DNA from: a virus
Length of the DNA stretch: 64,000 bases
Virus record (IMG/VR): IMGVR_UViG_3300033148_008025
Location: 57,455 to 121,454 of that record
Strand: one strand, 5' to 3'
Shown here: positions 25,661 through 52,190 of the stretch, piece by piece
Numbering within the stretch: the first letter of the stretch is position 1
How the letters are laid out: each line of letters starts with the position of its first letter
The notes under the pieces: generated by a model
The model's database searches: none
What the model was told of the DNA's origin: nothing
Seen by the model: only the letters and a program-made list of their open reading frames with translations
Position numbers and translations under genes: made by a program

Positions 25661-27703
25661 ATGGCAAGCACGCAATCAGGATCTTTGGATCGACGTCGGG
25701 GAACGGTATATCCATCACCGTTCTTTGATATCGCCCAGACATATATGCCGCCAACCGTGAAAGAACTTTTCCGGTGGTGTGCATATTTCTTTTACAAAGA
25801 TCCAATGATCGGCTCGGTGGTCACGAAGATCGCCGAGTACCCTGTTACGGACTTTGTCTACAACGCAAGCCAAAAACATGTTCGCGACGGGTGGAAAGAA
25901 ATCCTCGAAGACACGCTGAACATGAAACCGTTCCTCATAGAGGTCGGGCTAGACTACTTCGCATACGGCAATGCATTCATCAGTATCAACCTCCCATTTA
26001 CACGATGGATCCAGTGTCCCAGTTGTTCGAGTCTTTACAAACTGGAAGATGAATCCTTCAAGTTCTCGTTCAAAAATTTCGAGTTTCACTTCGAGTGCAA
26101 GGACTGTAAATCCAACGTAGTTGGGAAGATCGTCGACAATCCAATAAGAGATCGCACTGGAATCAATTTCGTCCGGTGGGACCCCAAGAACATAGACATT
26201 CACTACAATCCTATTACTGGAAAGTCTAAGTACCGGTACCAGATTCCAAACAAGATCAAGAAGGCAATCCACAAGGGTAGCCGTGAAATACTGGTCGACA
26301 TCCCAGAGATTTTCTTCATCGCGCTCAAGAAGAAAAGGGACATACAGCTATCAGACCAGAACCTTTTTCACTTCAAGCGTCCAACGCTCGCAGAGCAAGA
26401 CATGGGATGGGGGAAGCCACTAATCATCCATTCGATGGGAAGGATGTTCTACCTCTACGTTCTCAGAAGGGCTCAAGAGGCTATTGCCTTGCAACGCATA
26501 ATGCCAATGGAATTCATCTTCCCGCAGGCAAATGCTCAGCAAGACCCATATCAGCACGTAAATTTATCCTCTTGGCAGGGAAACATAGAGAACGAAATTC
26601 ACAAATGGAGGCAGGACCCCAATTACATCTCAATCGTTTCTGTTCCGCTCGGCTTTGAACGTCTTGGCGGTGATGGCAGAGCGCTTCTTCTTGGGCCTGA
26701 GATTGAAGTCACGAACAAGGAGATCACGGGTGGAATGGGAGTTCCGTTAGAATTCGTATTCGGAGGGCTGTCTTGGTCCGGATCCAGTGTTTCGCTACGA
26801 ACACTGGAAAACCACTTCCTGATGTATCGCCGACTTCTTCTTCGATTTGTAAACTGGTCAAAAAATCGAATCAGGCTGTACCTTGGACTTCCCGATATCG
26901 ACATTGGATTCACAGAATTCAAGATGGCTGATGACGTTCAGCGAAAACAAATTGTCATCCAGCTTAACGCTGCCAATAAAATCTCAGACCATACCATGCT
27001 CACAGAACTTGGATTTGATTACGACGATGAGCAGGAGATGATAGAGAAAGAGACCGATCAGCGAAACCAGATTCAGGCGATGACGATGAAGGCTCAGGCA
27101 GAAGCACAGGGTGAGTCATCCATCGTCTCCGCAAAGTATCAGGCAAGAGCGCAGGAAACTTTCCAGGAAGCACAGGGGGCGATCTCTGGCGGGCAACCTG
27201 GGCAAACAGAGCAAGCGCAGGCGCAGGTATCAGAAGGCCAGGAGCAGAACCCTGAAGAGGGCGGAGGGCAGCCTCGGCAACAACAAGGCGAACAACAACA
27301 GCCTCAGGACGGGCAACAGCAGATAACGCAAATCCCAACTTCTGCACAAGGAATCGGAAAGTCCGAGGATCAGTCCATGGCTGCACAAGCCGCTGCACAG
27401 GGTGCTGCACAGGGCCAGGCTGCCGTCGAGGGACAGGCTGGCACTCAAGCTGGCGGGACTTCTACGGACGTCAAAGACGCCGCGGGGCAGGCAAAGGAGT
27501 GGGCCAACATAATCGCCAAGAAGCCACCAGAGGAGCAGGCAAAGATTCTCGCAGAAATGGACAGAAAGTTGCCAGCCATGACAAGGCTGGTGAAACAACT
27601 TCTTGCGCAAATGGCTCCCGGAGAGACCTCGGGAGATGCCGCAAAGAAAATGAAGCCCCTTCCACAGAAGGCCCCACCCAGGCGTAACCAGGGGGTCATC
27701 TAA
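25661..27703 (+). CDS. Portal protein with inserted zinc ribbon, 680 aa
   Basis: The central body has portal features: a helical stem region and EITGGMGVPLEFVFGGLSWSG, SLRTLENHFLMYRRLLLRFV, as in SPP1-type portals of large phages. Position upstream of structural genes and length (portals are 450-700 aa) agree. A zinc-ribbon-like insertion lies at residues 119-149 (C119, C122, C146, C149). From about residue 475 the chain is very Gln/Ala/Gly-rich (QQQGEQQQPQDGQQQ), probably the disordered interior tail. The portal forms the dodecameric DNA channel at one capsid vertex. The stop overlaps the next ATG (TAATG). Confidence 0.75.
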   Translation: MASTQSGSLDRRRGTVYPSPFFDIAQTYMPPTVKELFRWCAYFFYKDPMIGSVVTKIAEYPVTDFVYNASQKHVRDGWKEILEDTLNMKPFLIEVGLDYFAYGNAFISINLPFTRWIQCPSCSSLYKLEDESFKFSFKNFEFHFECKDCKSNVVGKIVDNPIRDRTGINFVRWDPKNIDIHYNPITGKSKYRYQIPNKIKKAIHKGSREILVDIPEIFFIALKKKRDIQLSDQNLFHFKRPTLAEQDMGWGKPLIIHSMGRMFYLYVLRRAQEAIALQRIMPMEFIFPQANAQQDPYQHVNLSSWQGNIENEIHKWRQDPNYISIVSVPLGFERLGGDGRALLLGPEIEVTNKEITGGMGVPLEFVFGGLSWSGSSVSLRTLENHFLMYRRLLLRFVNWSKNRIRLYLGLPDIDIGFTEFKMADDVQRKQIVIQLNAANKISDHTMLTELGFDYDDEQEMIEKETDQRNQIQAMTMKAQAEAQGESSIVSAKYQARAQETFQEAQGAISGGQPGQTEQAQAQVSEGQEQNPEEGGGQPRQQQGEQQQPQDGQQQITQIPTSAQGIGKSEDQSMAAQAAAQGAAQGQAAVEGQAGTQAGGTSTDVKDAAGQAKEWANIIAKKPPEEQAKILAEMDRKLPAMTRLVKQLLAQMAPGETSGDAAKKMKPLPQKAPPRRNQGVI

Positions 27704-28050: not shown

Positions 28051-28645
28051 CGCACTCGCAGTTTTTGCAACACTTGCAATCGGAGTTTCAACTCCAGTGT
28101 TCGCACAACAATTTGACGCAGGCGAAGTTTCCGCTGAGCTGGCAATTGCAAGCGACGCAATGCCAGCCCCCGCCGTATCACTGGAGGTAGCCTCTCTGGT
28201 CACACCAGGCCCAGAGCTACCCACCTCGGAAGATCAGGCGGATGCGCGAACCTCCCTTGATAAACTCAGTAGCGAACTTCTGAACATCTTGGTTCCAACA
28301 TTTGTCTTGCTCATCGGAGCGCTGGCAACGGCACTACTGAATTGGACCCGAAAGCGTTTCAAGCTCGATGTTAGCGACAGGCAAATTTACCATTGGTCCA
28401 CAATCGCAGAAATGGCAGGAGACAGGGCTGCAGAGTGGGCGCGAAACAAAGCAAAAGACCTGACTGAAGGAGAAACTGTGCCTGGCCCAGAACTTCTAGA
28501 GGTAGCTGCAAACTGGGGCATTGACTATGGGATTGCTCAAGGACTCCCGGAAATTGGTCGAAGAAAATTCGAAGGCTTAGTTGAGAGCCAGCTTCACGTC
28601 AAACGTATCAGTCTTATCGCCGACATCCAGGTAGATGAAAGCTGA
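27995..28645 (+). CDS. Signal-peptide membrane protein, holin-LLH-like, 216 aa
   Basis: Start choice: the ATG pair at 27995/27998 is six to nine bases after GGAG; the earlier ATG at 27983 lacks a ribosome site. A basic N-terminus and hydrophobic segment (ALAVFATLAIGVSTPVFA) form a signal peptide with an AxA-type cleavage site before QQFDAGE. A transmembrane helix follows at about residues 95-115 (LLNILVPTFVLLIGALATALL), then a helical soluble domain (residues 120-216) like the LLH holin family (NWTRKRFKLDVSDRQIYHW, AAEWARNKAKD). It likely acts in the envelope during lysis. A signal peptide on a holin-type protein is unusual and could mean a different envelope function. Confidence 0.55.
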   Translation: MMKSTKQKKAGRLSALRVSALAVFATLAIGVSTPVFAQQFDAGEVSAELAIASDAMPAPAVSLEVASLVTPGPELPTSEDQADARTSLDKLSSELLNILVPTFVLLIGALATALLNWTRKRFKLDVSDRQIYHWSTIAEMAGDRAAEWARNKAKDLTEGETVPGPELLEVAANWGIDYGIAQGLPEIGRRKFEGLVESQLHVKRISLIADIQVDES

Positions 28646-29072
28646 ACAACCAGCACCCGATCCCGCGAAGCTCCTAAAGGAGATCAAAGATTTTCTTGTC
28701 AAAAAAAGTGAGCCGTCGACTAACTCGGGTGGCCGCAGAAGCAAGTCATGGCTCTGGGCGATTATCATCCCACTGATCGTTATTGCTGGGATTGCGGTAT
28801 ATTCCTGGACCGCTTTTCGGCGGAATCGGGAGCTTGCCAAACTTCGCCATGAAAAGTTTAAGCTAGACTTCAGAAAAGAACAGGTCGAACTGTTCGTCGA
28901 ATTCAACAAAAACTCATCAAAAATCGAAGAAGCAGGCAGAGAGCTTGCCCTGTCCAGGGATAGGGTAAGAAGCATCGACGCGGACATCTCAGCTCTGGAG
29001 AAAAAACATGAAGCAGATCTTGCTGCTATTGACAGTATTCGCTCTTGGGACGAAGCCGACATACGCAGATAA
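28635..29072 (+). CDS. Single-span coiled-coil membrane protein, inner-membrane spanin-like, 145 aa
   Basis: About 35 cytoplasmic residues, one transmembrane helix (WLWAIIIPLIVIAGIAVYSW, about 40-59), then a long charged coiled coil to the C-terminus (RELAKLRHEKFKLDFRKEQV, ELALSRDRVRSIDADISALE). This N-in/C-out topology with a coiled coil is that of Rz-type inner-membrane spanins. The start overlaps the previous gene by 11 bp, and the 3' end overlaps the next gene by 65 bp in another frame, as in many Rz/Rz1 pairs. Confidence 0.5.
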   Translation: MKAEQPAPDPAKLLKEIKDFLVKKSEPSTNSGGRRSKSWLWAIIIPLIVIAGIAVYSWTAFRRNRELAKLRHEKFKLDFRKEQVELFVEFNKNSSKIEEAGRELALSRDRVRSIDADISALEKKHEADLAAIDSIRSWDEADIRR

Positions 29073-29472
29073 TACAAAGCCGGCTGCGGGGCTAACCGTT
29101 ATTCCCGACTGTACACTGAAGAAAATCGGCAACGAAGTCTTCTGCGTTCACTCACTCGAGGAGTGGAAAAAAGTGATGAAGGCCGACCTTGAAATTGTCT
29201 ATCTTCGTGAACAGCTAAAAAATTACGAAAGACGCTCTGCCGCTCTGACCCAGCAGGTGAGACTGCTTACAGGCCAGAGGGATGTGTACGCTGAAAGCCA
29301 GGGGCTGATCCTGGGCAGGAATGAAGACATCTCGAATCGGCTCATTGAGATGAATCGAAAGTATGAAAATGAGAGAGCCAAGCCGTCCTTCGGCCCTCCC
29401 GTTGCATGGACAATTTCTGCAGTATCTGCCTCTATTCTTGCCGGGTTTATACTCAAAGAACAAATGGACTAA
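29008..29472 (+). CDS. Exported coiled-coil protein with C-terminal anchor, 154 aa
   Basis: The gene begins inside the previous one. An N-terminal signal peptide (ILLLLTVFALGTKPTYA, predicted cut before DN) is followed by a small domain with two Cys (PDCTLKKIGNEVFC), a long coiled coil (residues 55-125) and a C-terminal hydrophobic helix (VAWTISAVSASILAGFIL). It has no lipobox, so it is not a classical Rz1 lipoprotein. With the preceding gene it may form an envelope-spanning lysis or membrane complex. Confidence 0.5.
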   Translation: MKQILLLLTVFALGTKPTYADNTKPAAGLTVIPDCTLKKIGNEVFCVHSLEEWKKVMKADLEIVYLREQLKNYERRSAALTQQVRLLTGQRDVYAESQGLILGRNEDISNRLIEMNRKYENERAKPSFGPPVAWTISAVSASILAGFILKEQMD

Positions 29473-30002
29473 CAGGGGTAGCGGTCGAGCACGCTTCTTT
29501 GCTGTGACGGCACTCCTTGGGGCTGAGACGGGTAGTGCGGTGGTGGAGCTCCCAGTGGTATCCCGTAGCCCGCCGGACCCTGCTGGGGCTGCTGATGCTG
29601 CTGGCTAGGGGGGAACCCAAGTGGTGAGCTTCTAGCATGGTTTGGCATAGACGGATTTCCTGTCATTGTGCCAAGTGCTGCTATTGGGAGAATCGGTAAT
29701 CCGCTTCCTTCCCACTTTCCTAGGAAGTGTTGGTAAACCATGGACCCTGCCGCGAGCATGAATGCCCAGGCGCAGGCCGCGAAAAATGTTCGCATCCCAC
29801 TGCCAACAGGTGTCTGATTGACGGCCCCTGTGGTGGGGGGGACAAGCCCAGAATTATCTGTGATAAATCCTGAGGCTGGGACTGCAGCGGCTGCAACTGC
29901 AAGAAAACCCAGGTCTGACAGTGTTGGCCCTTTCTTCTTTGCTGTAACTCTTCGCTTTTTGGTGGGGAAGCTGTTCTTTGCTAGAACGATGTAACAAATC
30001 AT
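29469..30002 (-). CDS. Membrane-associated Pro-rich protein, 177 aa
   Basis: Minus strand, with its stop overlapping the stop of the plus-strand gene (CTAA). AGGAAAA precedes the ATG. A basic N-terminus is followed by two hydrophobic segments (about 31-47, LGFLAVAAAAVPASGFI, and 72-90, FFAACAWAFMLAAGSMVY). The C-terminal 65 residues are Pro/Gln/Gly-rich and disordered. It is a single gene opposing the surrounding operons. Function unknown. Confidence 0.5.
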   Translation of the reverse strand: MICYIVLAKNSFPTKKRRVTAKKKGPTLSDLGFLAVAAAAVPASGFITDNSGLVPPTTGAVNQTPVGSGMRTFFAACAWAFMLAAGSMVYQHFLGKWEGSGLPILPIAALGTMTGNPSMPNHARSSPLGFPPSQQHQQPQQGPAGYGIPLGAPPPHYPSQPQGVPSQQRSVLDRYPC

Positions 30003-30093: not shown

Positions 30094-30102
30094 CCCTTAT
30101 GC
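30094..30102. repeat. CCTTATGCC box, copy 1
   Basis: Nine-base sequence identical at 38153-38161 and 51412-51420; a related TTATGCC is at 61931-61937. All lie at gene boundaries. Here it is 22 bp before the ATG of the RNA polymerase gene. Confidence 0.4.
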
Positions 30103-30124
30103 CAAGACAATGTAGGTGCCGACT

Positions 30125-33100
30125 ATGGAAAGCTTCGATTACCAGGACCAGTTCAACAGGGTTAAGAAGGATGTTATTGCATCCGTGACCAAGGCTCTCG
30201 ATATCCAATCTGCTGGTGCAAACCGCAAAATGGTTGTCCATAAAGTATGGATCGATGACAACAAAAACCCAGCAGACTGGGAGTCTCAAAAGCAGGCCGT
30301 ACGAAAAGATAAGACTTGGGGAGTACCTGTCTATGCAACCGTTGATCTCATTGACCGAAAGACCGGAGCGGTTCTTTCCTCTGAGGAAAGGATCAAGGTA
30401 GCCACACTTCCGAGGCCCACGAACCTCGGGAGTTTCATCATCGACGGAAAACACTATCAGGTTCAGTCTCAGCTTCGCCGCAAACCTGGTGTCTACACCG
30501 TTCAGAAGCGAAACAAACAACTCAAGACTGAGGTGAACATCCAGAAGCGCCCATTTGATATCGATATGGATCCGGAAACTCAGATCTTCAAAATGAAGAA
30601 AGCGGGTTCCGACCAGGCGTTTGCCTTGTATCCGATTCTCTCTAGGCTTGGAATCTCAGATGTGGCAATGGCTCGAAGATGGGGCAAAGACGTTCTCGAG
30701 GCAAACAAATCAATCAAGCCGAAGAACGCCGAGGTCTCAGTAAGAAAGGCTGCGTTGTTCTTTACTGGAAGCAACTTTGATTCTGCCGAGGACGCAGCAA
30801 ATGCAATAAAGGAGTACTTTCAGGATACCGAAATAAAGCCAGAGGTGACCAAGTCAACCCTCGGAAAAGCGTATACGAAGGTTACGCCCGACCTCTTGCT
30901 AAGAGGATCAGAAGAGCTTCTTCGGGCAAACAGGGGAGAGCGCGAAGCGGATGACAGGCAAGCTCTTGAGTTCAAGAAAGTTCTCGGAATGAGCGACCTG
31001 ATGAGAGAGAGAATGCTCCAAAGCGATGGGCAACTAGCTGGTGCCATGTCCAAAGTAAGAGGCGGAATCTCCAGGAAAATCAACAACCGAAAGAAACCTG
31101 TCTCGGAAATCTCCAAACTCATAAAGACGAACGAGTTCACGCCGTTCTTCAACTCTTTTTTTAGCCAATCTTCGCTATCAAACATCACAGACCAAACTAA
31201 TCCGATCACCATGCTGAACGGAACCGCCAAGATCACCGTACTCGGGGAAGGGGGGGTAATGGATGCCACCAGAGTTCGAGGCGAAGAGAGAGCTGTACAC
31301 CCATCTCAGATGGGATTTATAGATCCGATCCATACGCCCGACTCTGGAAACATTGGACTGGTAATGAACCTTCCACTTGGAGTCACCAAGAATGGGGAGA
31401 ATCTACAAACAAAGGTGATAGATCCGATAACTAAAAAAATCAGATCGATTACCCCGAGTGAAGCAAGAAACATGGTCGTAGCTTTCCCGGATCAGTATTC
31501 AAAGAAGACTGGAAAGTTCCTGGGAGACAAAGTCAGAGCATTTGTGAATGGGCAATTTGAGAACGTGTCGCCAGACAGGGTTGATGTCGTTCTTGCTAGC
31601 CCAAAGCAAGCATTCTCAATTGCATCAAATACCATCCCGTTCCTTCCTGCGGCACAGGGCGTTAGAGCGCAGATGGCAACCAAGATGCTTGAGCAGGCAA
31701 TTCCTCTCTCGGAAAGAGAAGCTCCTTTGGTCCAGGTTGGACTTGGTAGAAGCACTATCGAGAAAAGCATAGGAGAGGGGTTCTCTGTCCAGGCGCTGGA
31801 CGACGGAATCATAGAGAAAGTCGAAGACGGCAAGATCACGATAAAGACCAAGGATGGAAAGGTGGAGCAAAAACTCTACACGAATATCCCGCTAAACAAA
31901 AAAGCGTTTCTGACGTCAACCTCGACAGTCAAAGAGGGGGATGCCGTCAAAAAGGGAGACGTTATCGCTGACTCGAATTTCACGAAAGATGGTCAGCTTG
32001 CACTTGGAACAAACCTTCGAGCAGCCTACATCCCATACAAGGGATACAACTTCGAAGATGGAATTGTAATCACTGAGAGCGCGGCAAAAAAACTTACCAG
32101 CGAGCACATGAACGAGTTTGCATCATCCATAGAAAAAGGAATGGAGGTCTCACTTAAAGACTACATGGCATGGAAGGGTGGGGGGCTCGACCTCAGCCAG
32201 CGACGAAAACTTGACAAGGATGGGGTCATCAAAATTGGCGAAACTGTTCACAAGGGCGATGCACTTTGGGTCGGAACAAGGGAGAATAAGTATGACCCAG
32301 ACTATATCGCAGCCAAGAAAATGAATCCCAACCAAGATCCTAAGAAGGCCTACAGGGAGGAGTGGACAAAGGATGGGTTAGGGGAAGTTGTCGACGTAGT
32401 CAAAAGCAACGGTAAGATCAAGGTTTACGTGAAGTCTAAGGAGGCTGCGGTCATAGGTGATAAGCTCACAAATCGTCACGGCGGAAAAGGAATTGTAACC
32501 AAAATTATCCCGGACGGAGAAGCACCTTATACAGCAGACGGAAGAGCTGTCGATATCCTGCTCAACCCTCACGGCGTCGTGAGCAGAATCAATCCTTCCC
32601 AGATCCTCGAAACAGCAGCAGCCAAAATTGCCGACCTCGAAGGCAAGCCGTATGTTGTCGAAAACTTTTCCGGCGAAAATTACACGGAGTCTGTAACGAA
32701 AGCTGTCAAGAAGGCAGGCATCTCAGATACTGAAACCCTGTATGACCCGCACACAAAGAAAGCACTCGGTGATGTTCTTGTTGGCCCCCAGTACACCCTG
32801 AAGCTTTCAAAGCAGGCAACGTCTCAGTTCTCTGCACGCTCTGAGGGGAAGTACGATGCAGATCTTGCTCCGCTCAAGGGTGGAGAAGATGGTGCAAAAG
32901 CCCTCGACATGTTGACGTTCTACTCGATGCTTTCGCATGGCGCTCGTTCAAACATTAGGGAGATGGCAACATACAAAGCAACCGAGAACAAAGAGTTCTG
33001 GCGATGGGTCGAGAGAGGGGCCTCGTCCGGAATGATTACGCCTCCGCCAGAACCAACTCTTGCATACAAGAAGTTCGAAGCCTACATGAAGGGCGCCGGT

Positions 33101-36100
33101 GTCAACATGGAACGACGTGGGTCAAAGATGGTGCTTGGGCCAATGACCGACGAGATGACAGACAAGATCAGTAATGGGAAAGTTCGAGATGCAACATTCC
33201 TTCGAGCGAAAGATCTGAAGTACGAGCGCGGCGGACTGATGGATCCAAACATATTCGGCCAAGGCGACAAGTGGGGACACATCGAACTTGCCGAATCCAT
33301 TCCAAATCCAGTCTTTGAAAAACCAATCAAAGTACTCACCGGCATAGATGACAGAACATTCAAGGCAGTGGTCAAAGGCGAAAGATTCTTAGACCCTAAA
33401 ACCAATGAGTGGAATGAAAAGAAAGGGCTTACTGGTGGCGAAGCCATCTCTCATTTACTGAAGCAGGTTGACGTAGATAAAGAAATTGCCATCTGGACAG
33501 ACAAAGCAAAAGGAGCGGCCTACAAAAAAAGGAAGGACGGGACTCGAACGGAGGACGAACTGAACACTGCCAATAAAAGGCTTCGCTATCTTCATGCCCT
33601 CAAGAAACTAAACATGTCCCCGGACAAGGCTTACATCCAAAAGAAAATTCCAGTTGTCCCAACGCAGTTTAGGAAGATCATCGAAATGGAGGGAGGCAAC
33701 CTCTCCAACGCCGGACTCAACTCTCTGTACCGAGATGTTGGTTTGATTAGCGACCAGCTCAAGTGGCAGAAAACCGTCGACTACATGCCCGAGTCCGTAA
33801 AGGCGGAGCTTAGGGAGAATCTGTACGGAAGTGTGAAGGCCGTAGCTGGACTCGGAGAGCAGGTGAGGCGAGGAGGAAGTCAGAAAGCTGACAAGCGTCC
33901 AAGGGGCATCATCGAACAACTAAAAGGAAAGAAAGCAAAAGAAGGGTTCTTTCAGCGGAAGGTTTTGCGCAGAACGCAGAACCTCGTCGGGAGAGGAACG
34001 ATCATTCCAGATCCGAAGCTCGGGGTTGACGAGGTCGGCCTCCCGAAAGAAATGTCCTGGACACTGTTCGAGAAGTTTGTAACTCGACGCCTAGTCAATA
34101 GTGGGTACAAACCGAATGATGCAATCGAGGCAGTAAACAATCGAACCCCTGCAGCACTATCTGCCCTGCAAGCGGAGATGGAAAGCAGGCCGGTAATGCT
34201 CAACAGGGCACCGTCACTCCATAAGTTCTCTATCCAATCGTTCAAACCAAGAATGGTCGATGGAAAAGCGATCAAGATCCCTCCACTCATTGTCGGAGGC
34301 TTCAACGCCGACTTCGATGGAGACGCAATGACTGTGCACGTTCCAGTACTCAGCGACTCAGTGGCCGAGGCTAAGAAGATGCTCCCATCTAGGAACCTGT
34401 ACAGTCCCGGAACTGGCGACATCATGATCAAACCCCAGAATGAAGCCGCCCTAGGGCTGTATCAGATGTCAATCGATCCAAAGCTCAAGGGGAAGATCTT
34501 AGAAGAACTTCCCGAGAAGACCAGAGCCAAATTCGAAAACCGTCCACTCGATAAGAAGGGGCTTGGAGATCTGATGAAGAGCCTCGCAATCGAAAGTCCG
34601 GATGGGCATGGTGCGGTTGTCGACAAGCTCAAGCTTATGGGTGACGACCACACATACAAGACTGGATTCACAGTCAGCCTGAAAGACTTGTCCCCGGTTC
34701 TTCCTGAGAGGAATGCAATATTCGCAAGAACGAAAAAAGACCTAGCGGGAATTGATACTAAAACCAGGAAAGGAAGAGAGGAAGCATCTGCTTTAATTTC
34801 CGCCGCAGACAAAGAACTGGAAGCCGTCTTAGCCAGTCGCCTCGATGAGCAAGGAAACAGTTTTCGACTAATGGTGAGATCTGGCGCTCGAGGGAACATG
34901 CAGCAGCTCAAGCAGATCCTATCTGCTCCGTTTGCCGTTCCAGACCATAGGGGGCAAGTGCTGGCAGAACCGATTACAACATCCTTTGCCGAAGGGCTGC
35001 CATTCTCGGATTACTGGAACACGCTATATGGGGCGAGGGCTGTTGCAACGGATAAGCAACTCCAAACCCAATTGCCGGGGGCATTCAACAAAGACATCAT
35101 GGCCTCTTCCGTTACCAACGTGATCTCCGGCGCGGATTGTGGGGTTAATCGAGGAGTGAAGATTTCACTCAAGAGTAAAATCGATGACGCAGAAGATCGT
35201 TACCTGGCCAAGGACATAAGTGTTGGCGGAACAGTTGTTGCCAGAGCGGGAACGCTTATGAGTACTGGACTGCTCAACACGCTGCGAGACCGAAAAGTCG
35301 ACAACGTGGAAGTTCGCTCTCCACTCACCTGTAATAAGCCGAAGGGTACATGCGCAAAATGCTTTGGACTCAACGAGAGTGGAAATCTATCTCAGATTGG
35401 GGACAACATTGGAGCTACCGCCGGCCAGGCTCTGTCTGAACCATTGACCCAGATGACACTGAGAACCTTCCACCAGGGAGGTGTTGCTGGAGGGCGAGGT
35501 GTTGTGAGCGGATACGACAAAATCGACAAGCTCTTTAAGATGCCAAAGATCAAAAGAGGAAAAGCCACCCTTGCCAAAAGTGATGGAGTCATTGAAAGCG
35601 TAAAAAATGCACCTGGTCGAACAGGGAAAAACATCAAAATCAGTGGCTATAGAAAAACTCATTTTGTTGAAAACGATCTGTGGAACAGCAACAAAGCTCG
35701 CGTTGGGAAGAATGTTTTCAAGGGGGACATCCTCTCCGACGGACTTGTTCAGCCACAGGAACTCGTCGAATTAAAAGGAATGCAGAGTGCACAAGAATAC
35801 CTTGTCGATGAGATTCAAGATGCCTACGGATCTCAGGGAGTGAAGCTGAAAAGAAAGACTGTAGAAACAGTAATCAGGGCAGTTGCGAACACCACAAAGA
35901 TCCACGACGCAGGCGACAGCAACTTCCTCATCGGCGATGTTGCACCATGGACGGTTGTGGAGGATTACAACCGGAGATCTCTAGGTAAAAAAGGACTCGA
36001 TGAGATTATCGGACTTGCCCTCAAAGAGGACGTTCCTGGCATCAGAAAGAATACGATTATCTCCGAGAAAATTCGAAGCACGCTGGAGCGCATGGGCAAA

Positions 36101-36346
36101 TCGGAAGTTGAGGTGGGACCGCGTCCAATCGGGCACGAGCCGTTCCTGAAGGGGATTGAGCAGATTCCAATGTTGCGCAAAGACTGGATGAGCCAGATGG
36201 GATACCGGAACATAGAAAAGGCGATCACTGAGGGTGCTGCTACTCTTTCAGAGTCCGACATCCACGGGTATGCGCCGGTCCCAGCATTTGCCTACGGAGC
36301 CGAATTTGGGCTACCTGGCGGAGGAAAAGAGGAGGGAAGTTACTAA
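30125..36346 (+). CDS. Single-chain RNA polymerase: fused beta and beta' subunits, 2073 aa
   Basis: Multisubunit-type DNA-dependent RNA polymerase in one polypeptide (about 228 kDa). Beta part: GSFIIDGKHYQVQSQLRRKP (about 102-121), Rif-pocket region (345-380), GYNFEDGIVITE (about 640-652) and GDKLTNRHGGKG (778-789) with the following LLNPHGVVSRINPSQILE. Beta' part begins near residue 1010: KVRDATFLRAKDLKYERGG, then NIFGQGDKWGHIELAE, LVGRGTII, the catalytic NADFDGDAM (1394-1402; D1396, D1398, D1400), bridge-helix region GARAVATDKQLQTQ, the second zinc site C1672, C1736, C1743, C1746, and trigger-loop QMTLRTFHQGG. The beta' N-terminal zinc ribbon is absent: six residues stand where bacteria have about 45. 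Start: ATG 30125 with AGGTG upstream; GTG 30116 is less likely. No alpha or omega is seen. Probable partner: the sigma factor at 5399. Confidence 0.95.
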   Translation: MESFDYQDQFNRVKKDVIASVTKALDIQSAGANRKMVVHKVWIDDNKNPADWESQKQAVRKDKTWGVPVYATVDLIDRKTGAVLSSEERIKVATLPRPTNLGSFIIDGKHYQVQSQLRRKPGVYTVQKRNKQLKTEVNIQKRPFDIDMDPETQIFKMKKAGSDQAFALYPILSRLGISDVAMARRWGKDVLEANKSIKPKNAEVSVRKAALFFTGSNFDSAEDAANAIKEYFQDTEIKPEVTKSTLGKAYTKVTPDLLLRGSEELLRANRGEREADDRQALEFKKVLGMSDLMRERMLQSDGQLAGAMSKVRGGISRKINNRKKPVSEISKLIKTNEFTPFFNSFFSQSSLSNITDQTNPITMLNGTAKITVLGEGGVMDATRVRGEERAVHPSQMGFIDPIHTPDSGNIGLVMNLPLGVTKNGENLQTKVIDPITKKIRSITPSEARNMVVAFPDQYSKKTGKFLGDKVRAFVNGQFENVSPDRVDVVLASPKQAFSIASNTIPFLPAAQGVRAQMATKMLEQAIPLSEREAPLVQVGLGRSTIEKSIGEGFSVQALDDGIIEKVEDGKITIKTKDGKVEQKLYTNIPLNKKAFLTSTSTVKEGDAVKKGDVIADSNFTKDGQLALGTNLRAAYIPYKGYNFEDGIVITESAAKKLTSEHMNEFASSIEKGMEVSLKDYMAWKGGGLDLSQRRKLDKDGVIKIGETVHKGDALWVGTRENKYDPDYIAAKKMNPNQDPKKAYREEWTKDGLGEVVDVVKSNGKIKVYVKSKEAAVIGDKLTNRHGGKGIVTKIIPDGEAPYTADGRAVDILLNPHGVVSRINPSQILETAAAKIADLEGKPYVVENFSGENYTESVTKAVKKAGISDTETLYDPHTKKALGDVLVGPQYTLKLSKQATSQFSARSEGKYDADLAPLKGGEDGAKALDMLTFYSMLSHGARSNIREMATYKATENKEFWRWVERGASSGMITPPPEPTLAYKKFEAYMKGAGVNMERRGSKMVLGPMTDEMTDKISNGKVRDATFLRAKDLKYERGGLMDPNIFGQGDKWGHIELAESIPNPVFEKPIKVLTGIDDRTFKAVVKGERFLDPKTNEWNEKKGLTGGEAISHLLKQVDVDKEIAIWTDKAKGAAYKKRKDGTRTEDELNTANKRLRYLHALKKLNMSPDKAYIQKKIPVVPTQFRKIIEMEGGNLSNAGLNSLYRDVGLISDQLKWQKTVDYMPESVKAELRENLYGSVKAVAGLGEQVRRGGSQKADKRPRGIIEQLKGKKAKEGFFQRKVLRRTQNLVGRGTIIPDPKLGVDEVGLPKEMSWTLFEKFVTRRLVNSGYKPNDAIEAVNNRTPAALSALQAEMESRPVMLNRAPSLHKFSIQSFKPRMVDGKAIKIPPLIVGGFNADFDGDAMTVHVPVLSDSVAEAKKMLPSRNLYSPGTGDIMIKPQNEAALGLYQMSIDPKLKGKILEELPEKTRAKFENRPLDKKGLGDLMKSLAIESPDGHGAVVDKLKLMGDDHTYKTGFTVSLKDLSPVLPERNAIFARTKKDLAGIDTKTRKGREEASALISAADKELEAVLASRLDEQGNSFRLMVRSGARGNMQQLKQILSAPFAVPDHRGQVLAEPITTSFAEGLPFSDYWNTLYGARAVATDKQLQTQLPGAFNKDIMASSVTNVISGADCGVNRGVKISLKSKIDDAEDRYLAKDISVGGTVVARAGTLMSTGLLNTLRDRKVDNVEVRSPLTCNKPKGTCAKCFGLNESGNLSQIGDNIGATAGQALSEPLTQMTLRTFHQGGVAGGRGVVSGYDKIDKLFKMPKIKRGKATLAKSDGVIESVKNAPGRTGKNIKISGYRKTHFVENDLWNSNKARVGKNVFKGDILSDGLVQPQELVELKGMQSAQEYLVDEIQDAYGSQGVKLKRKTVETVIRAVANTTKIHDAGDSNFLIGDVAPWTVVEDYNRRSLGKKGLDEIIGLALKEDVPGIRKNTIISEKIRSTLERMGKSEVEVGPRPIGHEPFLKGIEQIPMLRKDWMSQMGYRNIEKAITEGAATLSESDIHGYAPVPAFAYGAEFGLPGGGKEEGSY

Positions 36347-38101: not shown

Positions 38102-38196
38102 TGTTCTGCATTTCTTTCCCCGGACAATCGACCGGATTTTCTTGTTCATTAACCTTATGCCACTGAACGAGACGTGCTTAAGGTACTATCCAACAC
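38102..38196. promoter_or_regulatory. Divergent regulatory region between SSB operon and spike operon
   Basis: Contains CCTTATGCC (38153-38161) and, on the minus strand, GATAGTACCTTAAGCAC (about 38192-38176). The TACCTT core resembles the ATACCTTCA boxes at 22073 and 52153, and ATAGTACC also occurs in the divergent region before the polymerase gene. No classical -35/-10 pair is clear. Confidence 0.4.
38153..38161. repeat. CCTTATGCC box, copy 2
   Basis: Identical to copies at 30094-30102 and 51412-51420. Here 35 bp before the GTG start of the spike gene and within the leader region of the SSB gene on the other strand. Confidence 0.4.
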
Positions 38197-41829: not shown

Positions 41830-42714
41830 GTGCGATACCCATACGAGCGATTCATTAGGTTTCTCGTATCCCGCAAGCTTGATCCAAGTGACACGCTGAA
41901 CGGGTACGGGCTTCCACACGTGGGTCCGATGTGGACAAGCGATTGCCGCCACGAACTTCGAAAAACAGCTCCATCTGCGATCGTCAACTACATTGATTCC
42001 AAGAACGATCATCTTACGTTTAAGAATGGTGTCCTGGAGTGGGCGGAAGACGAGGGCTTTAGGGAGCTCTGGGATGCCCAACCCGAATTCAGCGGAAAGA
42101 CTGATGCAAAGTTAGACACTGCGCATCTCATTTTCATGAACCCTCACTCAAGGGCTCTGACTGGGATGATGATTCTCTCCAAGGCCTCAGACGATGAAAT
42201 ATGTCTGATGGTCAAAGAGAAGCTCGGCCTCGAGCTAGACGAAGAGGGCTTAGGTATATACTGCGATATCTTCTGGGATGTAGACATCCTCGGCAGAGAG
42301 GGGTGGGAAGCTTTTCTTTCTGAGATAAAAACGAAGGAGGAGAGGCACTACCTCGCACTAGGACTCGGGGCACTGTCACTCGACGAATGTCGCAATACAG
42401 CAGGACTCGGGACGCATCTTGACCTCGACATGATGCTTCACGCTGTTTTGTCAGAGTCCTTCTTCAAGCTGAGAGCTGCTTACAACCACCCAAACCCTGA
42501 AGCTGCGAACATTGAGATGTGGCATAGCCATTGGCAGAGAGCGTGGGATAGAGCAGAGAAAAGACGGAGAGAAGAAGACGGGGAAAATCCAATTGCAAGT
42601 GGCGACTTCGAAGCCCTCTTTTCGATTCGAACAACAAAATCCGAACATGTGTCACTCACTGACCTCAAAGGACACATGTCGACAGGCGCAGAAATCGCAA
42701 AAGAGAAGGGTTGA
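41830..42714 (+). CDS. Protein immediately upstream of the large terminase, 294 aa
   Basis: GTG start; the stop overlaps the terminase ATG (TGATG), so the two are translationally coupled. Helical and charged throughout, with FIRFLVSRKLDPSDTLNGYG at the start and HSHWQRAWDRAEKRRREEDG near residues 235-255. Position fits a small terminase subunit, but it is longer than usual and no helix-turn-helix is obvious. It could also be an adaptor for packaging. Confidence 0.5.
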   Translation: MRYPYERFIRFLVSRKLDPSDTLNGYGLPHVGPMWTSDCRHELRKTAPSAIVNYIDSKNDHLTFKNGVLEWAEDEGFRELWDAQPEFSGKTDAKLDTAHLIFMNPHSRALTGMMILSKASDDEICLMVKEKLGLELDEEGLGIYCDIFWDVDILGREGWEAFLSEIKTKEERHYLALGLGALSLDECRNTAGLGTHLDLDMMLHAVLSESFFKLRAAYNHPNPEAANIEMWHSHWQRAWDRAEKRRREEDGENPIASGDFEALFSIRTTKSEHVSLTDLKGHMSTGAEIAKEKG

Positions 42715-44492
42715 TGGAACAAGTAGAAGAGAAAGAAGAAGCTCTTGATAGCTACGACTCGGATCCGTTTGACTTTACGGAGTTTCAGGAGCGACCAGCG
42801 ATGCGGAAACACATCGACTGGAAGCATGCGGGTGACTGGGCACCAACACTAAAATCATTCACAAAGAAAGGGCGTACAAAACCTTCCTTCGGTGGTCGTG
42901 TAAGTGATATCGCACAGGCGGTTCTTTACCATCTCGGGCGACCACTCCGCCTTGACAATCATGCATTCATGCTCCCAGTCTTCAACGACCAAGATCCGAG
43001 GCTGGTTCTTAAGTGTTCGCGACAGGTTGCGAAATCAACAACCATTTGCAATCTACAACTGATTGAATCGATCATCACTCCACACTGGAGAAGCCTCTAT
43101 GTCTCACCGTCTGCACTGCAGACGAGGCAATACTCCAACGAGAAACTTCGTCCTACAATCTACGACTCACCGTTTGTGAAGGGTGGTTTTGCTGGGAAAG
43201 GGGTCACTGACCAGGTTTTTGAGAAAACCTTACTCAACGGTTCATACATGTTCCTGCGATACGCATTCCTCACTGCAGCCCGAGCTCGAGGTATCCCTGC
43301 TAGCCGCGTGTTTTTTGATGAAGCCCAAGACCTCCTGAAAGACAATATCAAGGTTATCTCACAGTCGCTCTCGGCATCACGCCTTGCTGCAGGTGTTGAG
43401 GGGCGGGAGATGATTGCAGGAACACCCCTGACTTTCGCCAACACGCTAGAAGAGTATTGGCAGTGGTCGACCCAGAACGAGTGGCTAGTCCCTTGCGACT
43501 GCAAGGCACCTCGATATTGGAATATGATCGGCCCGACAAACATCGGAAAAAAAGGGCTGATCTGCTCAAGCAAAAACTGCGGAAAGCCACTCAATGCCGC
43601 AGCGGGGCAATGGGTTTCATTTCAGCCCGGCGAGCACTATGTTGGATACCACATCTCCCAACTCATGGTTCCGTGGAAACAGGAACCAGACGCATGGAGT
43701 GCTGAGATCGTACTTCCATTCGACAAGTGGCCAGAATCAAAGTTCAACAATGAAATTCTGGGGCTATCCTACGACAACGCATCATCCCCTGTTACGAGGA
43801 TGGACCTACAGGCAAATTGCTATCCGCAGCAAGAAATACCAAACAAGAACACAAGAAAGTTCGTCTGGCAGAAAGGCCCTGCACAGGCAGGGCTAAGGGT
43901 GTTTGCAGGTATTGACTGGGGAGAAGGTCGAGAAGAAGGCGCGGTTGAAGGTGGGGTCAAGAGGTTCGCGTCATGGACCGTGCTAACTCTGGGCGGATAT
44001 GTTGGCGACAAGTTTTGGCCATTCGCCATGAAGCGATACGTGGGCAAGGATGTTGATCCAGAGATAATCATCCCAGACGTTCTGCACCTATGCGGATACT
44101 GGAACGTCGAAGTTGTGGGGGCTGACTGGGGGCACGGCTGGGGAATGAATAGCCGGATCATGAAGGCAATCGGAAAGCCTCGGGTGATGCAATTCGCTTA
44201 TTCGTCCAATCTTGGTGAGAAAAAAAGATGGGACGCAAATGCCTACAAGTTCATCATCAACCGCAACTCAGCCCTTGTGAATGTCTTTTCGAGCATCAAG
44301 CAAGGGAAATACGTTTTCCCCGAATGGGAGGAATTTGAACCATTCGGAAAAGATATCCTGGCAGAGTATGTGGAGTACAATGAGCGAACTCGAACAATGA
44401 AGTACGACCATCCGATAGATCAGCCAGACGATGCCCTGCACAGTCTTGTGTATTGCAAACTTGCGGCTGACATCACTCTTGGAAAGTTCTAA
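42714..44492 (+). CDS. terL: Terminase large subunit, 592 aa
   Basis: Packaging motor with ATPase and nuclease. Walker A is CSRQVAKST (101-109), the SRQxxKST form of TerL. Walker B and catalytic Glu: VFFDEAQD (199-206). A GpA-like zinc insertion follows (CDCKAPRYW ... CSSKNCGKP, about 261-290). Nuclease acidic residues: AGIDWG (D401), GADWGHGWG (D471) and PDDALHS (D572, D573). Start: ATG 42714 with AGAGAAGGG upstream; TTG 42711 is one codon earlier. It would cut and pump DNA at the portal. It is 15 kb from the portal gene, with the polymerase between them. Confidence 0.92.
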   Translation: MEQVEEKEEALDSYDSDPFDFTEFQERPAMRKHIDWKHAGDWAPTLKSFTKKGRTKPSFGGRVSDIAQAVLYHLGRPLRLDNHAFMLPVFNDQDPRLVLKCSRQVAKSTTICNLQLIESIITPHWRSLYVSPSALQTRQYSNEKLRPTIYDSPFVKGGFAGKGVTDQVFEKTLLNGSYMFLRYAFLTAARARGIPASRVFFDEAQDLLKDNIKVISQSLSASRLAAGVEGREMIAGTPLTFANTLEEYWQWSTQNEWLVPCDCKAPRYWNMIGPTNIGKKGLICSSKNCGKPLNAAAGQWVSFQPGEHYVGYHISQLMVPWKQEPDAWSAEIVLPFDKWPESKFNNEILGLSYDNASSPVTRMDLQANCYPQQEIPNKNTRKFVWQKGPAQAGLRVFAGIDWGEGREEGAVEGGVKRFASWTVLTLGGYVGDKFWPFAMKRYVGKDVDPEIIIPDVLHLCGYWNVEVVGADWGHGWGMNSRIMKAIGKPRVMQFAYSSNLGEKKRWDANAYKFIINRNSALVNVFSSIKQGKYVFPEWEEFEPFGKDILAEYVEYNERTRTMKYDHPIDQPDDALHSLVYCKLAADITLGKF

Positions 44493-49929: not shown

Positions 49930-50442
49930 TTGGCTCTTCGGGCTATAGCCGATCCAGTCACCAGGATCATTCAGCTATTGGATGCTCCTGTCGGTGGGCT
50001 GTCTGATATCAGTGTCCCTTACGACCTGTATAGTAGGCTCAAGGATGATTGGCACTCTACCCCAAATCTAAGAAAGCTTCACTTCTGCTTCAGCACGGAA
50101 GGTGGTACGACGGTAACTCCAGTCAAGAAGTCTGGAGCCTATTTCTTTCTGCGCAACGATCTGGGGTGGAGGCTTCGACCATACGATGCCAACCAAGAGT
50201 TAACGATCGACGGAATGCTTTACCCCTCGGACATTTCAATTCCGATGATCTTAACTCCTGCAGGCAGAACTATCATCATCTTCAACGAGCGCTCCAACCT
50301 TGCTCAGAGCGTGCAGGCTGAAACGGATTCGGCTGCAGTTGCAAACGCTGTCAGAGCTGAGCTTGCTCCAGAGCTCGCAGACATTGCAGTCACAGTCGAC
50401 CACGCCAGGGCTGCAAACGCTCAGACGAAAATAATTCCCTAG
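49930..50442 (+). CDS. Conserved phage structural protein, 170 aa
   Basis: TTG start with AAGGAG upstream. The central section matches a widespread phage structural layout: VPYDLYSRLKDDW, a beta stretch ending SGAYFFLRNDLGWRLRPYDA, NQELTIDGMLYPSD, and TIIIFNERSNLAQSVQ, followed by a C-terminal helix. Such proteins lie among tail or neck genes. I cannot give the family name. The stop overlaps that of the opposing gene (CTAG). Confidence 0.6.
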   Translation: MALRAIADPVTRIIQLLDAPVGGLSDISVPYDLYSRLKDDWHSTPNLRKLHFCFSTEGGTTVTPVKKSGAYFFLRNDLGWRLRPYDANQELTIDGMLYPSDISIPMILTPAGRTIIIFNERSNLAQSVQAETDSAAVANAVRAELAPELADIAVTVDHARAANAQTKIIP

Positions 50443-50849
50443 CGCTTATTGCTTTTCTCTTCGATTTTGTCGAACAGTGCTCTGGTGAGAGAGCCAGTTA
50501 GCGCACCCTGTGTTCCAAGGCCTGCAAGCTCAGACTTGGTTGTCAGCGGATCTTTCTTGGACAGGAGGCTGATAGATTTCGTCCCCTTCGGTCGGGCTAC
50601 ATTTTTGATGACCCTTGTCATCCCACGTCCGCTCAGCACTGCAGCGGGGATTGCCATGGCACCGAGAAGACTTGAAGCAAGGTAGTTCCTCTTCCTCTTT
50701 CGCCGTGCTTCTGGAATTTTGCGAATGATGCTGTCGGCACTATTCTCAGCCTTCATCTTGATTTTTGCAGACTCGAGAACGTCGTTAGACCCACTCGATG
50801 CACTCAGTTTTGTAAGCTCATCCGCGAAGCCTGACATCATTGGAGTCAT
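50439..50849 (-). CDS. Motif-bearing head-type protein on the minus strand, 136 aa
   Basis: The N-terminus MTPMMSGFADELTKLSAS carries the shared FADELTK motif. The remainder is basic and helical (IRKIPEARRKRKRNYLASS), with an Ala/Gly-rich hydrophobic segment (LGAMAIPAAVLSG). The ribosome site is weak and the exact ATG is uncertain. It stands on the opposite strand from the other motif proteins. Confidence 0.55.
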   Translation of the reverse strand: MTPMMSGFADELTKLSASSGSNDVLESAKIKMKAENSADSIIRKIPEARRKRKRNYLASSLLGAMAIPAAVLSGRGMTRVIKNVARPKGTKSISLLSKKDPLTTKSELAGLGTQGALTGSLTRALFDKIEEKSNKR

Positions 50850-50871
50850 TGCTTCAGTCTAACCGATGACT

Positions 50872-50911
50872 AAAAAAAAGAAAACTACGCCAGGGGATTG
50901 CTCCCCCGGCG
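50872..50911 (-). terminator. Intrinsic terminator of the minus-strand gene at 50917
   Basis: Read on the minus strand: CGCCGGGGG, loop AGCAAT, CCCCTGGCG (one mismatch) at 50911-50888, then a T-rich run opposite the plus-strand A-tract at 50872-50884. It directly follows the stop at 50917. Confidence 0.75.
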
Positions 50912-50916
50912 CAAGA

Positions 50917-51339
50917 CTAGATCATATTTGCGACTTTCAATTTGAGCAGCACCACAAGGTTTTCGACCTCCTCAACTCTGTTAAATGCCGTCATGGATTC
51001 CGCATCAAAACGATGATGGGCCTTTTTCCTGACGACATCTAGTCCCATCAACTCGCCGAGCTCAACTTCTGCCATTGCGGCTATGGCGCCTGCCAAGGCC
51101 TTTCTTGCTGCCTCGGCTTGGTTGGTTGCTAGCTCGACAATTCCTGTAATCGCAGTGCAGCGACCACGGATTACTCCAAGGTCAACATTCTCAATCTTGA
51201 TTCCATCTACATTCGCATTTGCAATAACCGCAATGGCATGCACTACGTCTATCTTTTTCTGGGCTTCTTCCTGAATAGAAAGCAGTTTTAAGTCTGCTTT
51301 CTCAATCTTGATACCAATACTGTCGATGACTTCTTCCAT
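50917..51339 (-). CDS. Helical hypothetical protein, 140 aa
   Basis: Start: ATG 51339 has AAGGAG six bases upstream; the longer form from 51387 lacks one. Entirely helical with regular heptads (IDSIGIKIEKADLKLLSIQE, EAARKALAGAIAAMAEVELG), likely a coiled coil. First gene of the terminator-ended minus-strand unit; unnamed. Confidence 0.55.
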   Translation of the reverse strand: MEEVIDSIGIKIEKADLKLLSIQEEAQKKIDVVHAIAVIANANVDGIKIENVDLGVIRGRCTAITGIVELATNQAEAARKALAGAIAAMAEVELGELMGLDVVRKKAHHRFDAESMTAFNRVEEVENLVVLLKLKVANMI

Positions 51340-51411
51340 CTTGGACTCCTTTGTTATGGCTAAGAAGGTTGGGGTGTCGAACCCCATACCCGTCCTTTGC
51401 CTTCTTGAAGT

Positions 51412-51420
51412 CCTTATGCC
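51412..51420. repeat. CCTTATGCC box, copy 3
   Basis: Identical to copies at 30094 and 38153. It overlaps the stop of the gene at 51414-52097 and lies 72 bp upstream of the start at 51339 on the minus strand. Confidence 0.4.
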
Positions 51421-52097
51421 TTATTACGCCACGAGACCTTTATCTCAAGTGGGTGTGCAATAATCCCTTGCCCATTCACCCCCTCTGCAAATAAATCCAT
51501 CAGCCCAATGAAGGCTTCCTCGGCCTTGGCTGCATCGGACCAGCTTGCGCCAAATGCAATCATATTTTCGTCCATGAAGAATGGGTCACCATTCCGACTT
51601 GCTTCCAGAAGAACAGGTGCCTTTAGGTGCCATCGCTTGAATTGCTTGCTGCCACCCCAGTAGTCGATAACTTTGAAAGCTGGTCCAATCGGAGTTTCCC
51701 CACTGGTAGCAATCTTGCCATCTTCTACGGCATACCCCATTGCTCGCATCCTCTCTATGTCAATGCCCTTGCTGGCGCCCATGACAACGGAAGCCAGTGC
51801 TCCGCCGGATGGAACTATAGACCTGTCAAACACTAGGTGAACAACTGTCTCAAGAGGCCTGTCTGGAACAGTACGCAAGAGCCCGTCCACTTCCCGTGCG
51901 GCCTTCATACCAAGGATTGCCGGCTGGGGCGGGGAAGCTTCTATCTGCGCCGCAGAGGCTGTCAGCTGCTTCCAAATGGATGTCTGGTCATACTTCGCCG
52001 TGGACAGCTCTACCGGAGGCTCAGTTCTTTGCACTGGTTCTCCACTTGCGACCAAATGCGCGCTAATATCACTTCCACAGTTCGGACAGAATTTCAT
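51414..52097 (-). CDS. Zinc-ribbon-start hypothetical protein, 227 aa
   Basis: Start: ATG 52097 preceded by AAGGAG; a longer frame to 52205 has no ribosome site and would run into the divergent promoter region. It begins MKFCPNCGSDIS, half of a zinc ribbon (a CxxC pair only), then a Pro/Glu-rich linker and a mixed alpha/beta domain (LVFDRSIVPSGGALASVVMG, AFKVIDYWGGSKQFKRWHLK). Unnamed. Confidence 0.5.
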   Translation of the reverse strand: MKFCPNCGSDISAHLVASGEPVQRTEPPVELSTAKYDQTSIWKQLTASAAQIEASPPQPAILGMKAAREVDGLLRTVPDRPLETVVHLVFDRSIVPSGGALASVVMGASKGIDIERMRAMGYAVEDGKIATSGETPIGPAFKVIDYWGGSKQFKRWHLKAPVLLEASRNGDPFFMDENMIAFGASWSDAAKAEEAFIGLMDLFAEGVNGQGIIAHPLEIKVSWRNKA

Positions 52098-52190
52098 ACA
52101 AGTTTCTCCTTCAGGTGTATTTCCGCTCGCTTGACCTGATTTTTGATAGCTTATACCTTCAAGTAGAACACTTGGAAGCAGGGAACCAAC
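52098..52190. promoter_or_regulatory. Divergent regulatory region before the head module
   Basis: Contains TTGACC (52131-52136), a 16-base spacer and ATACCTTCAAGTA (52153-52165), nearly the same box as at 22073-22085. It would drive the plus-strand head module from 52191. Confidence 0.45.

Follow-up and report, generated by a model that had tools for sequence, protein, structure and literature searches.

The RNA polymerase gene and its neighborhood

The window studied here, a stretch of 64,000 nucleotides from an IMG/VR virus record (IMGVR_UViG_3300033148_008025), carries on its plus strand a gene for a single-chain beta-beta' RNA polymerase core of 2,073 aa (P0001; 30125–36346), recognized from its open frame, Pfam, phmmer searches of PDB sequences, and AlphaFold2 models. 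As the initial annotation had proposed, the frame is uninterrupted, running from an ATG at 30125 to the stop at 36346 with no internal stops; an in-frame GTG lies upstream of this ATG, at 30116. Pfam domains occur in the order Rpb2_3, Rpb2_6, and then Rpb1_1, 2, 4, and 5, all above curated cut-offs (E = 7e-53 for Rpb2_6, 9e-26 for Rpb1_2, and 4e-25 for Rpb1_5), and phmmer matches bacterial beta' in the PDB at E~1e-103. The beta portion (approximately residues 1–1015; 30125–33169, plus strand), delimited by the models and the junction alignment, ends in a stretch that aligns to the beta C-terminus and passes directly (...NGKVRDATFLRAKDLKYERGGLMDPNIFG-QGDKWGHIEL...), through no linker recognizable in the alignment, into the beta' portion (approximately residues 1016–2073; 33170–36343, plus strand), from which the N-terminal zinc-binding domain (zinc ribbon) of beta' is absent.

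All of the beta and beta' motifs first quoted for this protein were found again: GSFIIDG at residue 102, NFEDGIVI at 642, GDKLTNRHGGKG at 778, NADFDGD at 1394, LTC...CAKC at 1734–1746, and MTLRTFH at 1777. In an alignment of 64 members, two active-site lysines of the beta double-psi barrel, K780 and K788, within GDKLTNRHGGKG (32462–32488, plus strand), and the three catalytic Mg-binding aspartates D1396, D1398, and D1400 of NADFDGD (34304–34324, plus strand) are present in every sequence. The second zinc site (C1672, C1736, C1743, and C1746; 35138–35362, plus strand) keeps its four cysteines in 61 of the 64 and is lost in the other three. The trigger loop and its helices (residues 1762–1805, with MTLRTFH; 35408–35539, plus strand), seen in both model and alignment, retain H1783 in 63 of 64 members, and residue 1780 is R, as here, or K in 49 of 64. 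The alignment thus confirms that the Asp triad, the second zinc site, and the trigger loop are intact in P0001. A predicted bridge helix of 36 residues (1627–1662; 35003–35110, plus strand) aligns to bacterial beta'.

Modeled with AlphaFold2, the beta portion (pLDDT 85) matches bacterial RpoB chains at E~1e-70 with TMq 0.73 in Foldseek, and the beta' portion (pLDDT 89, pTM 0.85) matches a bacterial RpoC at E=5e-66 with TMq 0.81. Both halves, each bearing a double-psi beta-barrel, are therefore predicted to fold as RpoB and RpoC, and the objection of a missing barrel, which the initial annotation had raised against itself, falls away. P0001 combines the features of a two-barrel RNA polymerase, namely the DxDxD triad, two beta-barrel lysines, the beta/beta' fold, a bridge helix, and a trigger loop; judged by these residues and models, it is very likely to be catalytically active. 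Positions corresponding to the rifampicin contacts Q513, H526, R529, and S531 of Escherichia coli are N, G, K, and T in the alignment, and from these substitutions the purified enzyme is predicted to be insensitive to rifampicin in vitro.

The genes around P0001 are those of a tailed phage. A portal protein gene lies a short distance upstream (25661–27703, plus strand; 30% identity to the portal of Salmonella phage Arash, E=2e-91, and a PHROG portal match), and farther along the same strand are genes for the terminase large subunit (42711–44492; phrog_675, E=4e-47; Arash terminase, E=3e-53) and the major capsid protein (62867–63760; phrog_2522, E=1e-17; 32% identity to the Arash MCP, E=3e-49). 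The RNA polymerase gene also sits beside an annotated portal gene in Arash and beside a portal-homologous gene in Vibrio phage D69, so that its setting in a structural region is not the peculiarity it was first taken for.

A sigma70-like factor (P0008; 5303–6232, plus strand, with an uncertain TTG start) was identified by phmmer, Pfam, and its homologs. Its residues 89–305 match a solved SigA in one stretch (E=7e-7, phmmer), with similarity over sigma70 regions 2–4, and the Pfam match to sigma region 3 (E=8e-4) falls under the cut-off. Homologs occur in 15 of 19 records >100 kb, including Arash gp10 (E=3e-15), with which P0008 is syntenic; the gene immediately before it (2497–5415, plus strand) encodes a homolog of the Arash gp8 cell-wall hydrolase/virion protein (E=2e-5). 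A small ORF at 28635–29072 with a weak sigma-4 match was rejected as a coiled coil. We found no RpoA (alpha) in the record or in 30 relatives by a search that detected 13 of 14 controls; at 121 kb the record may fall short of the full genome, and an alpha gene could lie beyond its ends. The "complete core" of the initial annotation thus holds for beta and beta', both near-complete apart from the beta' zinc domain, and not for alpha. That annotation had overlooked the missing zinc ribbon, the absent alpha, and the phage's own sigma factor.

Fused and split relatives

At least 63 non-identical homologs of P0001, each a single frame, occur in IMG/VR contigs at 33–62% identity. They were recovered by an alignment-based scan; a protein-only scan yielded one relative. 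Among the nearest homologs, the full fusion is seen more often than any other arrangement, and the earlier view that such a fusion is unusual in a phage is not supported: the phage that encodes P0001 belongs to a large, little-described group with the same enzyme. In our literature search, no paper reported in explicit terms a phage protein of this type, with beta and beta' fully fused. A scan of genome contigs returned only three loci, all in MAG contigs, and for this reason no firm host can be named.

In a sister set that includes Arash and D69, beta is fused to the N-terminal part of beta' (beta-beta'N) and the C-terminal part (beta'C) is separate. The break falls at profile positions ~506–511 in every split member (Arash, D69, L072, L092, and others), corresponding to 34478–34535 (plus strand) in P0001, where the chain is intact; none of the loci found has its break at the point that separates beta from beta' in cells. 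One locus (L168) was omitted for its broken beta frame, and phage-collection records labeled Staphylococcus, Enterococcus, Acinetobacter, and Salmonella were judged to be bacterial rpoBC and served as outgroups only. In a tree of 34 taxa, which was built without Helicobacter or Wolbachia sequences, the phage enzymes form a long-stemmed monophyletic clade with 100% support, apart from bacterial RNA polymerases and nearest to Bacteria.

A probable virion-borne polymerase and its candidate promoter

Evidence from particles comes from Arash, whose RNA polymerase, a related enzyme of two chains, shares only ~30% identity with P0001. Gp206 (beta-beta'N) is the most-detected protein of the Arash virion proteome, with 3,516 spectra, more than any structural protein; Gp216 (beta'C) contributes 1,210 spectra and the sigma factor Gp010 467, at 100% coverage, and gp196, the other annotated sigma, is missing from the virion table (PMC10585845). 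By analogy, P0001 is likely to be packaged in the particles of its own phage.

A candidate promoter emerged from strand-biased 8-mers. The top such word of the window record is GGCATAAG, with 11 copies to 0 in favor of the strand opposite the RNA polymerase gene, and the same word leads in a sister record (G001, 9:0). In Arash the top word is GGTATAAG (30:1), and 24 of its 30 copies fall in the 60 nt ahead of an ORF start, compared with 8% of sites chosen at random; GGYATAAG has a ratio of 16:0 in another relative (G004), is balanced or absent in a further one (G008), and is weak in D69. In the window record, five of 12 copies are ≤60 nt from an ATG ORF start (random, 10%), and copies often directly precede minus-strand genes. 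The signal consists of exact, strand-restricted copies across the whole record; when one mismatch is allowed, the window alone shows no overall enrichment (eight found, 10.8 expected). Three candidate early-promoter elements, GGCATAAGG, lie on the minus strand of the window: at 30095–30103, between a divergent gene (29469–30002, minus strand) and the RNA polymerase gene; at 38153–38161; and at 51412–51420, 33 nt before a minus-strand gene (50917–51387). We infer that motifs of this type are promoters of the phage enzyme.

We consider it probable that P0001 is a virion-packaged, alpha-less, single-chain beta-beta' core that works with the phage's own sigma factor to transcribe early genes. Beta and beta' in one polypeptide would form the catalytic core of a DNA-dependent RNA polymerase and, because the halves are already joined in one chain, an alpha dimer would not be needed to unite them. 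We infer that P0008 pairs with this core. The resulting minimal holoenzyme of beta-beta' and sigma would be packed in the virion, enter the cell along with the DNA, and initiate minus-strand early and middle genes at GGCATAAGG-type promoters directly ahead of ribosome-binding sites. A broader account has, in our view, about an even chance: that a widespread lineage of tailed phages, predating the divergence among its ~33%-identical members, carries a virion-borne, self-sufficient, alpha-less beta-beta' plus sigma with an early, lineage-specific GGYATAAG promoter, and that the fusion is ancestral, with beta'C secondarily split off in one branch.

It is unlikely, by comparison, that the active single-chain enzyme is made only after infection and serves middle or late genes, like the phiKZ nvRNAP, leaving early genes to the host polymerase. 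The position of the gene among plus-strand structural genes would suit such a role, and GGTATAAG of Arash looks like an extended -10 element, which means that host sigma70 could perhaps read the motif in some phages; however, the motif has G at sigma70's conserved -7 T position. Several proteins detected in Arash virions are metabolic enzymes, and its authors allow that abundant enzymes in virions may be carry-over (PMC10585845), but Gp206 tops the structural proteins in spectra and is accompanied by the syntenic sigma, with gp196 absent. The very high signal in Arash particles and the adjoining portal gene could also fit a structural or ejection protein that has kept the RNA polymerase fold and lost transcription. 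This is very improbable given five catalytic residues invariant in 64 of 64 sequences at 33–62% identity, the near-invariant trigger-loop histidine (63/64), and the co-occurring sigma factor. Some phage records do carry bacterial rpoBC contamination, yet an artefact of that kind, or an assembly chimera, is already refuted here: the same single frame recurs in 63 non-identical homologs on other, independent contigs, which excludes an assembly fusion, phage genes flank it, and its clade stands apart from bacterial enzymes with 100% support.

A different question is whether P0001 belongs to the published mReC clade (Weinheimer and Aylward 2020), whose fused proteins would then have been described as beta and beta' subunits, with only the noticing of the fusion being new. 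This is compatible with the virion-borne reading, and we judge it quite possible, at somewhat less than even odds. The 97 mReC contigs came partly from IMG/VR, through profiles for beta and for beta', both of which a single fused protein could match (PMC7481178). Like the mReC enzymes, P0001 is a tailed-phage beta/beta' that matches the Pfam equivalents of both profiles, aligns with cellular RNA polymerases, carries NADFDGD (NADxDGD), and falls in a distinct clade (monophyly 100%) nearest to Bacteria. PF03237, the terminase (TerL) family of mReC, gives weak matches in 16 of 44 records of the P0001 family (E<=1e-3; nine above the cut-off, none in the window record). However, every MCP detected in mReC is PF07068 (PMC7481178), which is absent from all 44 records, including the window record, and present in the control phages Carin-5, YerA41, and Rhizobium TM30, each of which encodes beta' (and beta, where located) in a separate gene. 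The mReC paper describes two subunits and never terms its enzymes fused, yet comments on the crAssphage fusion (PMC7481178).

The virion-borne reading would make P0001 a bacterial-type RNA polymerase cut down to one core chain and one sigma, without alpha, which could be a minimal two-barrel model enzyme and a single-gene in vitro tool. A gene known mostly from metagenomes is now tied to published virion proteomics, the motif offers a concrete, testable promoter sequence, and, with a well-alignable enzyme on a long branch of its own closest to Bacteria, how phages came by or retained a cellular-type RNA polymerase becomes testable.

Comparison with known polymerases

The closest described enzymes are those of Arash (gp206 plus gp216) and of Vibrio phages D69, D148, and D181, which are homologous over nearly the full length at ~30% identity, join beta to the N-terminal half of beta', and share a gene beside the portal, a genomic sigma factor, and no alpha. 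Unlike P0001, they have beta'C as a separate chain of ~600 aa and a less canonical trigger loop (MILGTKH in Arash); in D181 the beta-beta'N gene has a further interruption, beside a homing endonuclease gene. The vRNAP and nvRNAP of the phiKZ/AR9 type are likewise two-barrel phage enzymes without alpha; they also have no omega, and their virion form is injected, but their beta and beta' are each divided among several highly diverged chains (PMC7598289), in contrast to the single 2,073-aa frame here. The single-chain two-barrel enzymes of crAss-like phi14:2 (gp66) and Thermus phage P23-45, some of them virion-packaged, are also highly diverged (PMC10770324), whereas P0001 keeps a near-whole bacterial beta/beta' architecture at 26–30% identity. 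Crass-like and YonO enzymes go undetected by cellular beta/beta' profiles, and P0001 gives strong Pfam Rpb1 and Rpb2 matches. Helicobacter-type fusions are cellular enzymes that work with alpha. Their rpoB-rpoC gene likewise joins the beta C-terminus to the beta' N-terminus in one ORF (PMC9696931), a likeness of architecture only: P0001 lacks the beta' zinc-binding domain, and we found no close sequence relation. Where the phage relatives are split, the break lies ~14–24 residues upstream of the start of cyanobacterial and plastid RpoC2, recalling the RpoC1-RpoC2 split; unlike RpoC1, the phage beta'N is joined to beta, and the two breaks apparently arose independently.

A single-frame beta-beta' polymerase

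The single beta-beta' frame described in the initial annotation was confirmed at window 30125-36346 (plus strand), where 2,073 codons and a stop form an open frame along which Pfam beta domains are followed by beta' domains, every match lying above its curated cut-off. The protein aligns at ~26-28% with Salmonella RpoB and RpoC, most of the length being covered. The end of beta passes directly into the start of beta' with no recognisable linker in the alignment, and the beta' N-terminal zinc-binding domain is missing at this junction. An assembly accident within the 121,454-bp record (of which the window is positions 57455-121454) was ruled out as the source of the fusion because many independent contigs carry homologous frames of ~2,020-2,200 aa.

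The catalytic Asp triad, second zinc site, and trigger loop, which had been called intact, were compared across 64 aligned members: the triad (D1396/D1398/D1400) and the active-site lysines K780 and K788 are invariant (64/64), the trigger-loop His is present in 63, and the second zinc site keeps all four of its cysteines in 61. One relative with 58% identity to the window protein (L009, 8873-15250) lacks these cysteines (LTDPTPHGISAKS), so zinc at this site seems dispensable in some members. Structure prediction, suggested earlier as a check, returned the bacterial folds when AlphaFold2 was run on the two halves as separate models, which address each fold on its own rather than their mutual packing. 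Residues 1-1050 (mean pLDDT 85, pTM 0.77) match bacterial RpoB lengthwise (E ~1e-70, TM 0.73), and residues 960-2073 (mean pLDDT 89, pTM 0.85) match RpoC lengthwise (E 5e-66, TM 0.81). Catalysis by the fused enzyme is very likely. Four changes at rifampicin-contact positions were seen in the alignment, and the enzyme is therefore predicted to be insensitive to this drug.

Gene arrangements and phylogeny of the family

A profile-based scan of IMG/VR recovered at least 413 relatives and retained the best 80; a second scan used the C-half of beta' as query. Among 115 classified loci, which are a similarity-ranked sample rather than a census and a few of which share one contig, the whole enzyme occupies one frame in 77; the initial interpretation is supported at the molecular level, but the rarity implied by calling the fusion "unusual" is not. 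In 28 of the 115, some further broken, beta with the N-part of beta' is accompanied by a separate beta' C-part, and in none is the cellular beta | beta' boundary the break point. All two-chain members examined break at one and the same profile position, which lies a few residues N-terminal to the start of cyanobacterial RpoC2.

Intein or homing-endonuclease domains lie inside the RNAP in those frames of 2,500-3,260 aa that were scanned (L076, 9032-18808; L037, 9032-16549; LAGLIDADG, homing-endonuclease, or intein domains) and in both chains of locus L003 (9926-14938 and 18621-20981; Intein_splicing, LAGLIDADG, and Hint domains), where one intein directly follows the catalytic ADFDGD motif and the other sits within the trigger loop. 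Frames at L032, L056, and L085 are likewise long. In Vibrio phage D181 (L006, 2827-8395), the gene for beta and the N-part of beta' is interrupted beside a homing endonuclease gene; it is intact in the related phage D69. A phage-type chain of this kind (L142, 6939-11414; 1,491 aa) also occurs in a contig of a Thermoguttaceae MAG from goat duodenum, a planctomycete genome that holds its own RpoB; the contig belongs either to a prophage or to a phage that was binned wrongly.

A 34-taxon tree built from both halves, with an archaeal root, recovers the phage family as monophyletic (100%) and places it nearest to Bacteria on a long stem; long-branch effects and a simple model limit how deep a claim can be drawn from it. 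The separate phylogenies proposed earlier, one of beta alone and one of beta' alone, agree on this placement and so give no hint that the two halves had distinct origins. The split members group as a single clade in the joint (86%) and beta' (63%) trees, although not in the beta-only tree, and on this grouping the fused state is probably ancestral.

Sigma factor, candidate promoter, and probable virion carriage

The window phage is shown by its portal, terminase, capsid, and baseplate genes to be tailed and a distant relative of the myovirus Salmonella phage Arash. The RNAP gene follows a short distance after the portal gene, an arrangement shared with Arash and, as judged by homology, with D69. 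A divergent sigma70-like factor (5303-6232, plus strand), overlooked in the initial annotation, overlaps the 3' end of the upstream virion-protein gene; its product matches solved SigA over residues 89-305 (phmmer, E=7e-7). Of 19 related records >100 kb, 15 encode a homologue and Pfam adds one more; the Arash homologue, gp10, is likewise placed after a hydrolase gene. RpoA was not detected in the window record or 30 relatives, whereas control genomes were positive. Outside the window, G000 encodes an SNF2-type helicase (50176-52116, minus strand) homologous to those of Arash and D69; in phiKZ-type phages, helicases of this kind are found alongside RNAP (PMC7824862).

A motif noticed by eye in upstream regions was then ranked blind by a strand-biased 8-mer search. 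GGCATAAG ranked top in the window record (11 copies on the strand opposite the RNAP gene, none on the other) and its sister G001 (9:0), as did GGTATAAG in Arash (30:1); GGYATAAG was biased in G004 (16:0) and GGCATAAG in G012 (7:1), the signal was weak in D69, and the search in G008 was negative. Copies lie ≤60 nt before an ORF start in 24/30 cases in Arash (8% of random sites), 6/9 in G001 (7%), and 5/12 in the window record (10%). In the window group, CWC upstream and RAAG behind the motif are common to the copies, which often lie directly before a ribosome-binding site. The strand-restricted GGCATAAG(G) sites (30095-30103, 38153-38161, and 51412-51420, minus strand, and eight more in the part of the record that precedes the window) often precede minus-strand genes. 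The motif is a candidate early promoter, and Arash and G004 conserve it in the form GGYATAAG. The sigma70 consensus has T at the last -10 position, from which the G of the motif departs. We infer that the fused RNAP uses this motif; pairing of the phage sigma with this promoter is plausible, the balance tipping slightly in favor. Of other strand-biased 8-mers, TTTTTTAG ranks second on the minus strand of the whole 121-kb record and first in D69, and CTTTTTAG ranks high in Arash; both are possibly parts of terminators.

In the Arash virion, Gp206 (beta with the N-part of beta') is the most-detected protein (3,516 spectra), accompanied by Gp216 (the beta' C-part; 1,210 spectra) and the sigma Gp010 (467 spectra, full coverage); gp196, the other annotated sigma, is absent from the virion table, and the authors leave undecided whether the detected RNAP chains and sigma are injected or carried over (PMC10585845). 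Packaging of the fused RNAP is likely. In the best-supported model, a single-chain core would assemble without alpha, pair with the phage sigma, travel in the virion, and transcribe the minus-strand genes, which gene order suggests are early.

Relation to known phage polymerases

We found no description of a full bacterial-like beta-beta' phage fusion in the open-access papers searched. The family may overlap with the multimeric RNAP-encoding Caudovirales (mReC), compared here by their published description. That description assigns them beta and beta' subunits, and their reported capsid family PF07068 (PMC7481178), present in Carin-5, YerA41, and Rhizobium TM30, is absent from all 44 records of the fused/split family. 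The single-chain RNAPs of crAss-like phages and P23-45 (PMC10770324) are far more diverged than the fused enzyme, and the phiKZ-type enzymes (PMC7598289) are split, the opposite arrangement to the fusion described here.
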